A stretch of 64,000 bases of DNA from Brachyspira pilosicoli. GTDB lineage: Bacteria; Spirochaetota; Brachyspiria; Brachyspirales; Brachyspiraceae. Below the pieces are notes generated by a model. It was not told the origin of the DNA. It did no database searches and saw only the letters and a program-made list of their open reading frames with translations. Both the position numbers and the translations under genes were made by a program. The stretch covers positions 248,001-312,000 of the forward strand of contig NZ_JAWLPU010000001.1 of NCBI RefSeq assembly GCF_036997485.1. Direction: 5' to 3'. Each line of letters begins with the position of its first letter. Position 1 is the first letter of the stretch. Positions 18,001 to 48,881 of the stretch are shown here, piece after piece.

Positions 18001-18340
18001 TTGTTTGTGGGGACTAGCCCCCTGCGAAGCGTGCCCGTAGGGTACACACCCCCAGTTCTTTTATTGATATAAAAGAACCAAAAGAACTGCATTAAAAAAA
18101 CTAGCTTTTAAGCATATCCAAAATCAGATATTATTTTATACTTAATATATATTCATGAGATATTAGCTATAGTATTTGTACTTTTTGCAACTTTTTGCTA
18201 CGGGAAAAAGTTGAATAAAAAAATCATATAACAAAATATAGTTATTTTAGAATATGTTGATTTTAGTTTGTCATAAAATATTTCTTAAGTTTTTGTTTGT
18301 GGTGGCTTTGCCCCCTGCGAAGCGTGCCCGTAGGGCTAAA
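18001..18340 (-). repeat. Intergenic modular repeat array R1 (A-B-A', minus orientation)
   Basis: Read on the minus strand, a truncated A-tail (18336-18291) is followed by module B (18217-18164), then a full module A (18092-18001). B contains the hairpin CAACTTTTT (18188-18196) with AAAAAGTTG (18205-18213). A contains GTTCTTTT (18055-18062) with AAAAGAAC (18071-18078) and ends in a G-rich/C-rich tail around GGACTAGCCCC. The same modules recur at 27.1-27.6, 45.7-45.9 and 48.1-48.7 kb. No gene was found in 17905-18400, which separates two divergent genes. Confidence 0.85.
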
Positions 18341-19768: not shown

Positions 19769-19786
19769 CAAATTTAAAAAATTATT

Positions 19787-19870
19787 ACCGCACGGTGGAA
19801 TAAACTTTTTTATATAATAAAATTCAAATTATAAGTTTATTAATATTTTAAATTTTTCTATGCGTGCGGT
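19787..19870. repeat. ACCGCACG/CGTGCGGT inverted repeat (C element)
   Basis: ACCGCACG (19787-19794) and CGTGCGGT (19863-19870) are perfect inverted repeats about 70 bases apart, 18 bases after creD. A similar GC-rich inverted repeat lies at 48179-48224. Such GC-rich words are rare in this AT-rich DNA. Apart from this and the terminator at 20175-20202, I see nothing definite in 19769-20227. Confidence 0.55.
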
Positions 19871-20174
19871 TATAAATATAATAAATTTAAATAAAGTTTT
19901 TAGATATAGATAAAATACTAATAAAGAATAAATATATACAAAATTTATAATTTTATAAAAAATTAGTTTTTTTAATTTTGATTATTTGCATGGTTTTATC
20001 ATACACTCAAGTTAACTTTTATAAATACTCTTAAAATATTAAGTTGTAGTATGTACATTCTTGAGAAATCATATCTAAAGTAGAATTTTTTTTTTACTAA
20101 ACCAGCAAAGCGCAGCATCTGAAAAACAATAATAAAAAAATTAACAAACTTAATGATTCTTAGTATATATAAAA

Positions 20175-26913: not shown

Positions 26914-27126
26914 ATGATGAATAACTACTTTGCAAAAATGCTTATTGCTATAGGAATTATTGCTATAATAATAGGAATATTAATACTATTAAAAATTCCT
27001 ATAGGCAAACTTCCTGGTGATATTGTAATAAAAAGAGAAAACTTTACATTTGCTTTTCCAATAGTAACTTCTATATTAGCAAGCATAATATTGTCTCTTA
27101 TAATGTGGATAATTTCTAAATTTTAA
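26914..27126 (+). CDS. DUF2905 family small membrane protein (70 aa)
   Basis: Two membrane helices (about 8-27 and 48-67) flank the family core, which reads IPIGKLPGDIVIKRENFTFA followed by FPIVTSI. That GKLPGDI plus aromatic-Phe-Pro-Ile pattern is characteristic of the DUF2905 family. The function is unknown. It follows the TrkA-like gene in the same direction and may be cotranscribed. A repeat array begins about 20 bases after its stop. Confidence 0.85.
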   Translation: MMNNYFAKMLIAIGIIAIIIGILILLKIPIGKLPGDIVIKRENFTFAFPIVTSILASIILSLIMWIISKF

Positions 27127-27148: not shown

Positions 27149-27606
27149 GAGAACCAAAAAGTGCAAGTGCTATAGCTTTATATGTTTAGAATATATAAAA
27201 CTAAAATAATATTTATATTTTGTTATACATAAAAAGCTATATTTCATTAAATGCAGTTCTTTTGGTTCTTTTATACCAATACCGAGTAGGTGCCTATCGG
27301 CAAAAGAACTGGGGTGCGGGGCAAAGCCCTGCAAATATTTTATTTAAAATTAATGTATGTTTTTGTTTTATTCAACTTTTTCCCGCCGCAAAAAGTTGCA
27401 AAAAGTGCAATTATTTAAGTTTTATATCTAAAGAATAAATATGATTATAAAATAATACCATACATTTTTAGCTATACTTTATTAAATGCAGTTCTTTTGC
27501 TTCTTTTATACCAATGCCGAAGACACTTCCTACGGTCGTAAAAGAAGTGGGGGCGTGTACCCTTATGGGCACGTTTCACAGGGGGCAAAACCACCGCAAA
27601 TGATAA
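27149..27606 (+). repeat. Intergenic modular repeat array R2 (B-A-B-A)
   Basis: Four modules alternate: a 5'-truncated B (27149-27195), A (27251-27338), B (27369-27411) and A (27487-27606). The first A stem is GTTCTTTT (27265-27272) with AAAAGAAC (27302-27309). The second A stem is CTTCTTTT (27500-27507) with AAAAGAAG (27540-27547), a compensated change. The B stem is CAACTTTTT (27373-27381) with AAAAAGTTG (27390-27398). Between the arms of each A sits a different small palindromic insert, for example CCGAGTAGGTGCCTATCGG at 27282-27300. The rest of 27127-27749 holds only AT-rich spacer and the fabV ribosome binding site. Confidence 0.87.
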
Positions 27607-27749
27607 ACTTAAAAATTTTTATTACATACTTTTAAGATGATTATATACAACACAAAACCACCATATGCTTGCTATTGAAAAATATATAATATGATATATC
27701 CTTAATGCAAAATAAAAATTAATTAAAAATAAAGAGAGGATTAATGATT

Positions 27750-45544: not shown

Positions 45545-45670
45545 TCAATTATAATCTCTAATTTAAACATTATATATTATTATTTATAGTATATAAGACA
45601 AATACAAAAAGTCAATGAATGCTTAATATATTTTAATATGCACTAAAAATTTTTTACTTTGGTTATTTTA

Positions 45671-45895
45671 ATTATTTGCAGGGCTTTGCCCCGCACCCCA
45701 CTTCTTTTGCGACCGAAGGAAGTGCCCTTGTGGCGTGACCCAAAGAAGCAAAAAGACTGCATTTTTTAACTTAAAATACAGGTATTATCTTACATTTTAT
45801 TTATATTCCAAACATACAAAGCTAAAGCATTTGCACTTTTTGGTTCTTTTTGCTGCGGGAAAAAGAACAATACAAATAACCAAAAGGCTGCATTT
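45671..45895 (-). repeat. Intergenic modular repeat array R3 (B-A, minus orientation)
   Basis: Read on the minus strand, a 5'-fragment of A (around 45895-45879) runs straight into module B (45873-45811), which is followed by a full A (45763-45671). The B stem here is GTTCTTTTT (45843-45851) with AAAAAGAAC (45860-45868), which differs from the CAACTTTTT/AAAAAGTTG of the other arrays but is fully paired. The A insert is a longer GC-rich palindromic stretch around GACCGAAGGAAGTGCC. No protein gene was found in 45545-46040. The array lies between divergent genes. Confidence 0.85.
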
Positions 45896-47941: not shown

Positions 47942-48138
47942 TATTATTATTTATAAATATTTATTATTGAACGTAGTCATACTATAACAAATAATAAATT
48001 AAGTCAAATTATCAAATAAAACTAGTAAATCTAAAGATTGAGTTTTAATAAAATATAATATTTTTTGGTTATAGATATTTAAAAAGTAAATTAATAAATA
48101 TTTATATTACATTAATTTTATTATTTGTATATTTTTTG

Positions 48139-48740
48139 TTTATTCAACTTTTTCCCGCGTACGAGCTGTACCACCTTGCCGCACGGTAATGTTATCCTTT
48201 AATTATAACTTCTTAGTCGTGCGGAGGAGTGCCTTTTAATGTACAATTAAATTATAAAATTTATAATAAGAATGCAGTTCTTTTGCTTCTTTTATACCAA
48301 TAAAAGAAGTGGGGGTTCGGGGGCTAGTCCCCGCAGATAATAAAAAAGATGAAAATTTTTTAGTATCTATTAAACAACTATAATTTATATTATTATTTTT
48401 ATTCAACTTTTTCCCGTAGCAAAAAGTTGCAAAAAGTACAAGTACTATAGCTTTGTATGTTGGAATATGTATAAACTATATTGTAATACCAACATTTTAA
48501 GCATAAAAAATGCAGTTCTTTTGCTTCTTTTATACCAATACCGAGTAGGTGCCTATCGGCAAAAGAAGTGGGGTGCGGGGCAAAGCCCTGCAAATAACTA
48601 AAATAAAAGAATCAAAAATTTTTAATATATATTATTAAAACTATTATTTTATATCAAATTTCTTATTGTTCTTTTTCCCGCAGCTCGCACCCACAGGCAC
48701 TTCCTTCGGTCGCAATCTGGGGAAAGCCCCAGATATAAAA
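48139..48740 (+). repeat. Intergenic modular repeat array R4 (B-A-B-A plus a chimera)
   Basis: A B start (48141-48159) is broken by a GC-rich inverted repeat. Then come A (48272-48338), B (48401-48470), A (48510-48598) and a chimeric piece (48664-48740). A stems are CTTCTTTT/AAAAGAAG (48286-48293 with 48302-48309, and 48524-48531 with 48561-48568). The B stem is CAACTTTTT (48404-48412) with AAAAAGTTG (48421-48429). The first A lacks the palindromic insert that the second A carries (CCGAGTAGGTGCCTATCGG at 48541-48559). The rest of 47942-48881 is AT-rich spacer. Confidence 0.88.
48179..48224. repeat. CCGCACG/CGTGCGG inverted repeat inside array R4
   Basis: CCGCACG (48179-48185) and CGTGCGG (48218-48224) are inverted, about 32 bases apart. 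They sit where module B would normally continue after TTCCCG. The same words occur at 19787-19870. This may be a small mobile palindrome that entered a B module. Confidence 0.55.
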
Positions 48741-48788
48741 CAAAATATAATTTTCACAAAATAAAATTCTAAGACTATAAAAAAATAT

Positions 48789-48814
48789 TAAACAAATTTC
48801 AATTATACCGAAAA
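48789..48814 (+). promoter_or_regulatory. Possible sigma-28-like promoter of flgE
   Basis: TAAA (48789-48792) is followed after about 14 bases by ACCGAAAA (48807-48814), near the flagellar consensus TAAA-N15-GCCGATAA. It lies about 70 bases upstream of flgE. The match is partial and the spacer is one base short. Confidence 0.35.
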
Positions 48815-48881
48815 TAATTACTAAGAATATAACAAATTAATTAAATATAAAAAAAATTACTTTTATGGAGGAATTCGCCTT

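Follow-up and report, generated by a model that had tools for sequence, protein, structure and literature searches.

Among the small repeats described in other bacteria, the RUP element of Streptococcus pneumoniae is a uniform unit of 107 bp with IS630-Spn1-like ends that inserts at TA (PMC2229807, PMC3049150). The BOX elements of the same species consist of tandem boxB modules between boxA and boxC, and a relation to ISSpn2 has been suggested for them (PMC3049150). The Correia (NEMIS) elements of Neisseria measure 107 or 155 bp and end in inverted repeats some 24-26 bp in length (PMC2229807), and REPs go with Y1 tyrosine transposases (PMC2817692).

Here, a family of hairpin modules was analyzed in a window of 64 kb (the whole stretch of Brachyspira pilosicoli DNA under study, 64,000 nucleotides) and in related genomes. 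The modules are, with high confidence, the interior of a non-autonomous MITE of the IS630 type (Tc1/mariner superfamily) that is confined to Brachyspira. Like RUP, the Brachyspira unit is a small non-coding intergenic repeat with about 100 or more copies, IS630-family ends and insertion at TA; unlike RUP, it is 230-380 bp long, ends in terminal repeats of ~27 bp and contains three hairpins with covarying stems as well as GC-rich cassettes that can be exchanged. With BOX it shares a composite make-up of modules, variable middles and many interspersed copies, but BOX has tandem boxB modules and a suggested relation to another IS (ISSpn2), a comparison made by description. Correia elements resemble the unit in their terminal inverted repeats and TA termini and occur in two size classes by virtue of an internal segment; however, they differ in sequence, host and size, and a comparable set of covarying GC-rich hairpins is not described in the accessible part of that source. 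BIME and REP sequences are likewise high-copy extragenic palindromes in mosaic arrays, yet REPs lack the boundary of terminal inverted repeats and TA duplication, and no Y1 transposase above the Pfam cut-off was found in Brachyspira. RUP is the nearest system in mechanism, BOX in modular make-up, and Correia in the length of its ends and in TA. No account of the element was found in a literature search, carried out largely without subscription journals, and no named element combining the modules came to light, as had been surmised before. The element is thus undescribed in the searchable literature; its kind, an IS630-related MITE, is known, and its interior is unusual.

The preliminary description of this DNA placed alternating hairpin modules A and B, in the order B-A-B-A and with an additional chimera, in the 940 bases that separate truA from flgE, and the same modules at 18.0, 27.1 and 45.7 kb. 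The modules were confirmed at window positions 48141-48736, together with a truncated third unit, and relatives were found at the three other places (best E 1.5e-46). They do not alternate as independent modules: hairpins B and A are parts of the same repeat unit, B-linker-A-C, of ~230-380 bp, in which B always precedes A on one strand. A full unit runs TA, T1, hairpin B, linker, hairpin A, hairpin C, inverted T2, TA. T1 is a terminal inverted repeat of ~27 bp, TATACTRAAAATTTTTAASTTTGTCAA, and T2 is the terminal inverted repeat TATANCTAAACAANTATATTTTGTCAAA, placed in inverted orientation at the opposite end. The A/T-rich linker of ~65-85 nt is poorly conserved across copies and wholly replaced in some, and hairpin C, the third of the unit, lies directly 3' of hairpin A. 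In the chimera type, a 110-nt segment is swapped in for the whole middle between the B left arm and A, and this arrangement of B left arm, CGTACGAGCTGTACC... and A recurs in further copies. Accordingly, the chimera of the window is a unit with a replaced middle, and the B-A-B-A array consists of two units in head-to-tail order, followed by a third that is truncated.

In the truA-flgE gap, unit 1 (48141..48345, plus strand), the arrangement of which recurs in other copies, comprises the B left arm TATTCAACTTTTTCCCG (48141-48157), the 110-nt replacement middle (about 48158-48270), the A hairpin (48271-48315) and the C hairpin GGGGGCTAGTCCCC (about 48316-48337), all on the plus strand. At its joint with unit 2 (48352..48386, no strand assigned) lie worn terminal inverted repeats with scores of 13-14 of 27, AAAATTTTTTAGTAT for unit 1 (right end) and TATTAAACAACTATAATTT for unit 2 (left end); each is weak alone, since control gaps give comparable matches, and their position agrees with that in intact copies. 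Unit 2, also on the plus strand, contains the B hairpin CAACTTTTTCCCGTAGCAAAAAGTTG with its flank GCAAAAAGTACAA (48397..48465, profile match), a poorly conserved A/T-rich linker (48466..48507), and the A hairpin with the loop cassette CCGAGTAGGTGCCTATCGG followed by the C hairpin GCGGGGCAAAGCCCTGC (48508..48600, profile match). It is closed by a worn right terminal repeat of the T1 type (48614..48629, score 14 of 27), which reads TATATTAAAAATTTTT on the minus strand. The truncated unit 3 (48657..48736, plus strand), identified by direct reading, retains the B left arm TTGTTCTTTTTCCCG, the cassette CCACAGGCACTTCCTTCGGTCGCA and a C-type hairpin TCTGGGGAAAGCCCCAGA, and lacks the B right arm, the linker and A.

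The 18.0-kb copy lies on the minus strand, with A at 18036..18092 and B at 18165..18219 (both profile matches) and a worn T2-type end at 18231-18254. At 27.1 kb, two plus-strand units were delimited: unit 1 (27150..27338) with a remnant of the B right arm (27150-27189) and A plus C (27249-27338), and unit 2 (27366..27624) with B (27366-27432), A plus C (27484-27600) and a T1-type terminal repeat (27601-27624, score 20); this array is missing from the orthologous site in genome G016. The minus-strand copy at 45.7 kb (45668..45873) has A at 45668-45763, B at 45808-45873 and a worn terminal repeat at 45642-45661. A decayed unit at 19933..20167 (no strand assigned) had been overlooked; its terminal repeat, at 20141-20167, is of the T1 type and scores 19. 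The modules thus lie where the preliminary description placed them, except that the 27.1-kb region it called intergenic also holds a DUF2905-family gene of 70 aa (26914-27126, plus strand, E=2e-21), which is conserved in G016. A different, second family of intergenic repeats, with CCGCACGG...GCGTGCGG and GGGCGGG motifs, was seen at window 19786-19870 and in G011 at 2494135-2495607. Throughout the window the terminal repeats are worn (scores of 13-20 of 27, with similarly weak scores in control gaps). Because the ends of these copies are weak, their assignment to the family rests on interiors that match copies with clear ends. The window copies are old.

That the sequence alone had suggested elements without a terminal repeat is explained by the position of the repeats outside the hairpins and by their wear in the window. 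Further, our first boundary, placed ~10 nt outside hairpins B and C on the basis of column-wise conservation, proved wrong; the true terminal repeats lie further out, at a variable distance, and only the filled and empty sites of G009 (a complete genome) and G022, two close species about 95% identical, revealed them. Comparisons among G000, G011 and G016 revealed gain and loss but not clean ends. At site 1, the empty sequence AATTAATT-TA-TTTAAATT (G022 C13:6713-6715) corresponds in G009 (C2, ~419.2 kb) to AATTAATT-TA-TACTGAAAATTTTTAACTTTGTCAA ... TTGAAAAAGTTAAAAATTTTCAGTA-TA-TTTAAATT, where the TA is duplicated and the inserted unit starts with TACTGAAAATTTTTAACTTTGTCAA and closes with a near-identical inverted sequence, its ends being 26/27 identical. 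Site 2 (two units) and site 3 (one unit) of the same genome pair are compatible with this scheme. The ~27-bp terminal inverted repeats are located outside hairpins B and C, usually with T1 ahead of B and T2 behind A. A terminal-repeat consensus score of >=15 was reached in 20.6% of left and 21.0% of right flanks, compared with 1.1% and 0% in shuffles, and a TA lay immediately outside 69 of 97 T1 copies and 57 of 80 T2 copies (71% each). About 45 units of 228-380 bp were bounded by both terminal repeats with A and/or B inside. For 212 kb of the window's own genome, the count of terminal-repeat matches was 40, vs. one in shuffled sequence.

Since the TA duplication and terminal repeats pointed to IS630/Tc1-mariner, a DDE_3 transposase domain (PF13358) was sought in 26 Brachyspira genomes. 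The sole match (E=4.8e-10) was in G015, putatively Brachyspira sp. G79, where the gene is enclosed by a T1 and a T2 end separated by 1,059 bp, each with a TA on its outer side. This gene has decayed; the N-terminal 79 aa are intact and match plasmid genes that carry the annotation 'IS630 family transposase' (37% identity, E=2e-6), and DDE_3 is matched at 1.4e-5 by one C-terminal stretch. The same N-terminus was found behind T1, running into a contig end, in G023 (C213, L238), where T1 equals the consensus at 27/27 positions and the copy is inserted in a gene, and in G014 (C79, L241), where it is inserted within a MITE copy. A complete intact IS was not recovered, as decay has affected the G015 copy and the contigs end within the G023 and G014 copies; judged from their clean terminal repeats, the latter two may be still active elements. 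With a DDE transposase of the IS630 type, TA insertion and a length in the range of ~1.0-1.2 kb, the partner has the features of IS630/Tc1-mariner elements. A transposase, which had not been noticed in the initial reading, is therefore present in relatives, as an IS630-family gene that shares these ends; searches of the window's own genome with DDE_3 and with the N-terminus gave no trace of one, and the element there looks like a fossil population.

The same ends on IS630-family transposase genes, together with the TA duplication and the terminal repeats, identify the unit as a MITE. It has terminal inverted repeats at both ends, a target-site duplication and ends in common with an IS; it contains no transposase, is short (under ~500 bp) and exists in many copies. 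Its interior has no evident sequence in common with the IS and, therefore, the unit is not a simple internal deletion of it. In the MITE sense, then, the modules are fragments of a known transposon, which the preliminary description had named as an outcome that would speak against its own reading; their interior is unlike the IS. Tc1/mariner elements excise and paste at TA. From the common ends and the TA duplication, we infer that the unit may be moved in trans by an IS630 transposase, which would bind the T1/T2 ends, excise the unit and paste it at a TA. Insertions outside intergenic gaps would be selected against, leaving survivors between genes only, and several units landing in one gap could give rise to the B-A-B-A pattern. 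Recombination between copies might swap the GC-rich cassettes and replace middles, yielding chimeras.

The abundance and host range of the modules were determined with profile models of A and B in three genomes (744 kb), counting copies, positions and orientation as had been proposed initially. This search yielded 57 A and 49 B matches at E<1e-3; shuffled sequence gave no A match and one B match (E=0.48). The density of A was 14-22 copies per 184-320 kb, and extrapolation from the 744 kb suggests that most Brachyspira species have about 200 units in each genome. Within the window's own genome, an 81-base piece of A had at least 40 matches. A was found in 23 of 26 Brachyspira genomes (E<=0.001), and an exact 35-base A pattern occurred in 83 stretches across 84,980 species genomes, all of them Brachyspira among the matches listed. 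The rest of the phylum returned only short, A/T-rich, chance-level matches with E above 1e-4. The phage and plasmid collections searched held no match, and an origin from phages or plasmids was rejected on that ground. In agreement with the supposed non-coding nature of the modules, none of the 106 A and B matches overlapped an ORF, although 86-88% of the searched 744 kb is coding.

The stems of all three hairpins vary in sequence while keeping their pairing, as judged from raw counts across related copies in which kinship is ignored. Over all 191 copies, one A pair was G-C 95 times and C-G 81 times; among 140 short-loop copies, it was G-C in 78, C-G in 54 and mispaired in 7. Other A pairs alternate between A-T and G-C or among T-A, G-C and C-G. 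In the B stem, CAAC pairs with GTTG in 25 copies and GTTC with GAAC in 12, and the flanking pairs of the C hairpin switch among C-G, T-A and G-C. The conserved flanks reported earlier were recovered along with these covarying stems, but not every hairpin is perfect, as GC-rich cassettes are inserted in the loops. Cassettes near modules keep one orientation relative to the unit (31/31, 26/27 and 17/18), and this fixed orientation led us to reject the idea that they are independent mini-palindromes. Covarying stems and cassette exchange are superfluous for transposition and are unexplained.

Features of this kind invite other readings. Hairpins near both ends, stem covariation, a location between genes, numerous copies and a mosaic make-up would also suit REP/BIME- or REPIN-like palindromes, spread by a Y1 (RAYT / IS200-IS605) transposase that reads hairpins in single-stranded DNA. 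We consider this origin, one of those raised in the preliminary description, extremely improbable, given that Y1_Tnp exceeded the Pfam cut-off in none of the 26 Brachyspira genomes and was missing altogether from the window's own genome, and that terminal inverted repeats with a TA duplication are foreign to IS200/IS605. It is also very unlikely that the modules form a structured RNA family (a small RNA or a cis-regulatory element) dispersed by chance, in which the strong covariation in the A, B and C stems would reflect selection on an RNA fold. Over the window, no Rfam match reached the gathering score; orientation relative to neighbouring tandem genes is random (A, 11 same and 10 opposite; B, 13:12); the linker is barely conserved and the whole middle can be replaced; and units are gained and lost fast between close species. 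An RNA gene, likewise suggested at the outset, is consequently disfavoured. As a separate observation, three open frames of ~210 aa (L215, L216 and L217, in G008, G010 and G014) gave sub-threshold Y1_Tnp scores of 15-16 bits.

A third proposal keeps the MITE origin and adds exaptation, with A, B and C serving the host, e.g. as bidirectional terminators or insulators at convergent genes, and being retained by selection. The position of A copies agrees with it, 20 of 55 (36%) lying in convergent-gene gaps, which make up 33 of 216 gaps >=150 bp (15%), but a purge of insertions near promoters would produce the same enrichment. Similarly, the pairing that persists in the stems despite sequence change could be maintained without selection by template-switching correction of hairpins. 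The hairpins of the window are less worn than the terminal repeats; however, turnover is high, a module being present in one species only at 7 of 10 module-bearing orthologous gaps of G011 and G016. On balance, exaptation appears unlikely. A broader suggestion, that the A, B and C hairpins are interchangeable cassettes acting at the DNA or RNA level, a genus-wide modular structural part that also shapes rearrangements, is put forward tentatively and with low confidence; candidate roles are, for example, those of terminators or insulators where genes converge, and of sites for hairpin-templated repair or recombination.

With regard to the arrays formed by the MITE, adjacent units in one gap were head to tail in 11 of 11 pairs (G000, G011 and G016), a rule that is unexplained. 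Array neighbours were no more alike than random copies (similarity 0.489 vs. 0.504), so that recent tandem duplication is unsupported as their source. The truA-flgE neighbourhood is unique to the window's genome, the upstream neighbour of flgE being different in other genomes with a readable upstream region. In G011, truA adjoins the gene at window 20228, and the joint contains an A module. The array fills the synteny break at window 48020-48758, and the decayed unit lies in that near 20.0-20.15 kb (19877-20150); hence, relative to G011, intact or decayed MITE copies sit at each of the two joints of the rearrangement. Among about four true synteny breaks in the window, two carry an intact or decayed unit, numbers too few for a statistic. 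Rearrangement by recombination between copies is plausible. Pentanucleotide microsatellites, (GATGC)n and (GTTCA)n, were also observed near genes (L137, upstream of flgE, and G009 C2 at about 446.7-447.9 kb) and are possible phase-variation tracts.

Beyond Brachyspira, a selfish element with covarying stems and exchangeable loop cassettes of fixed orientation is of general interest. Within the genus, whose gut spirochaetes are of veterinary and human importance, the main intergenic repeat is now bounded and tied to a transposase family. Annotators can stop labelling fragments of the unit as genes, the presence or absence of units provides markers for strain typing, and the units offer a testable link to the rearrangements between Brachyspira genomes.
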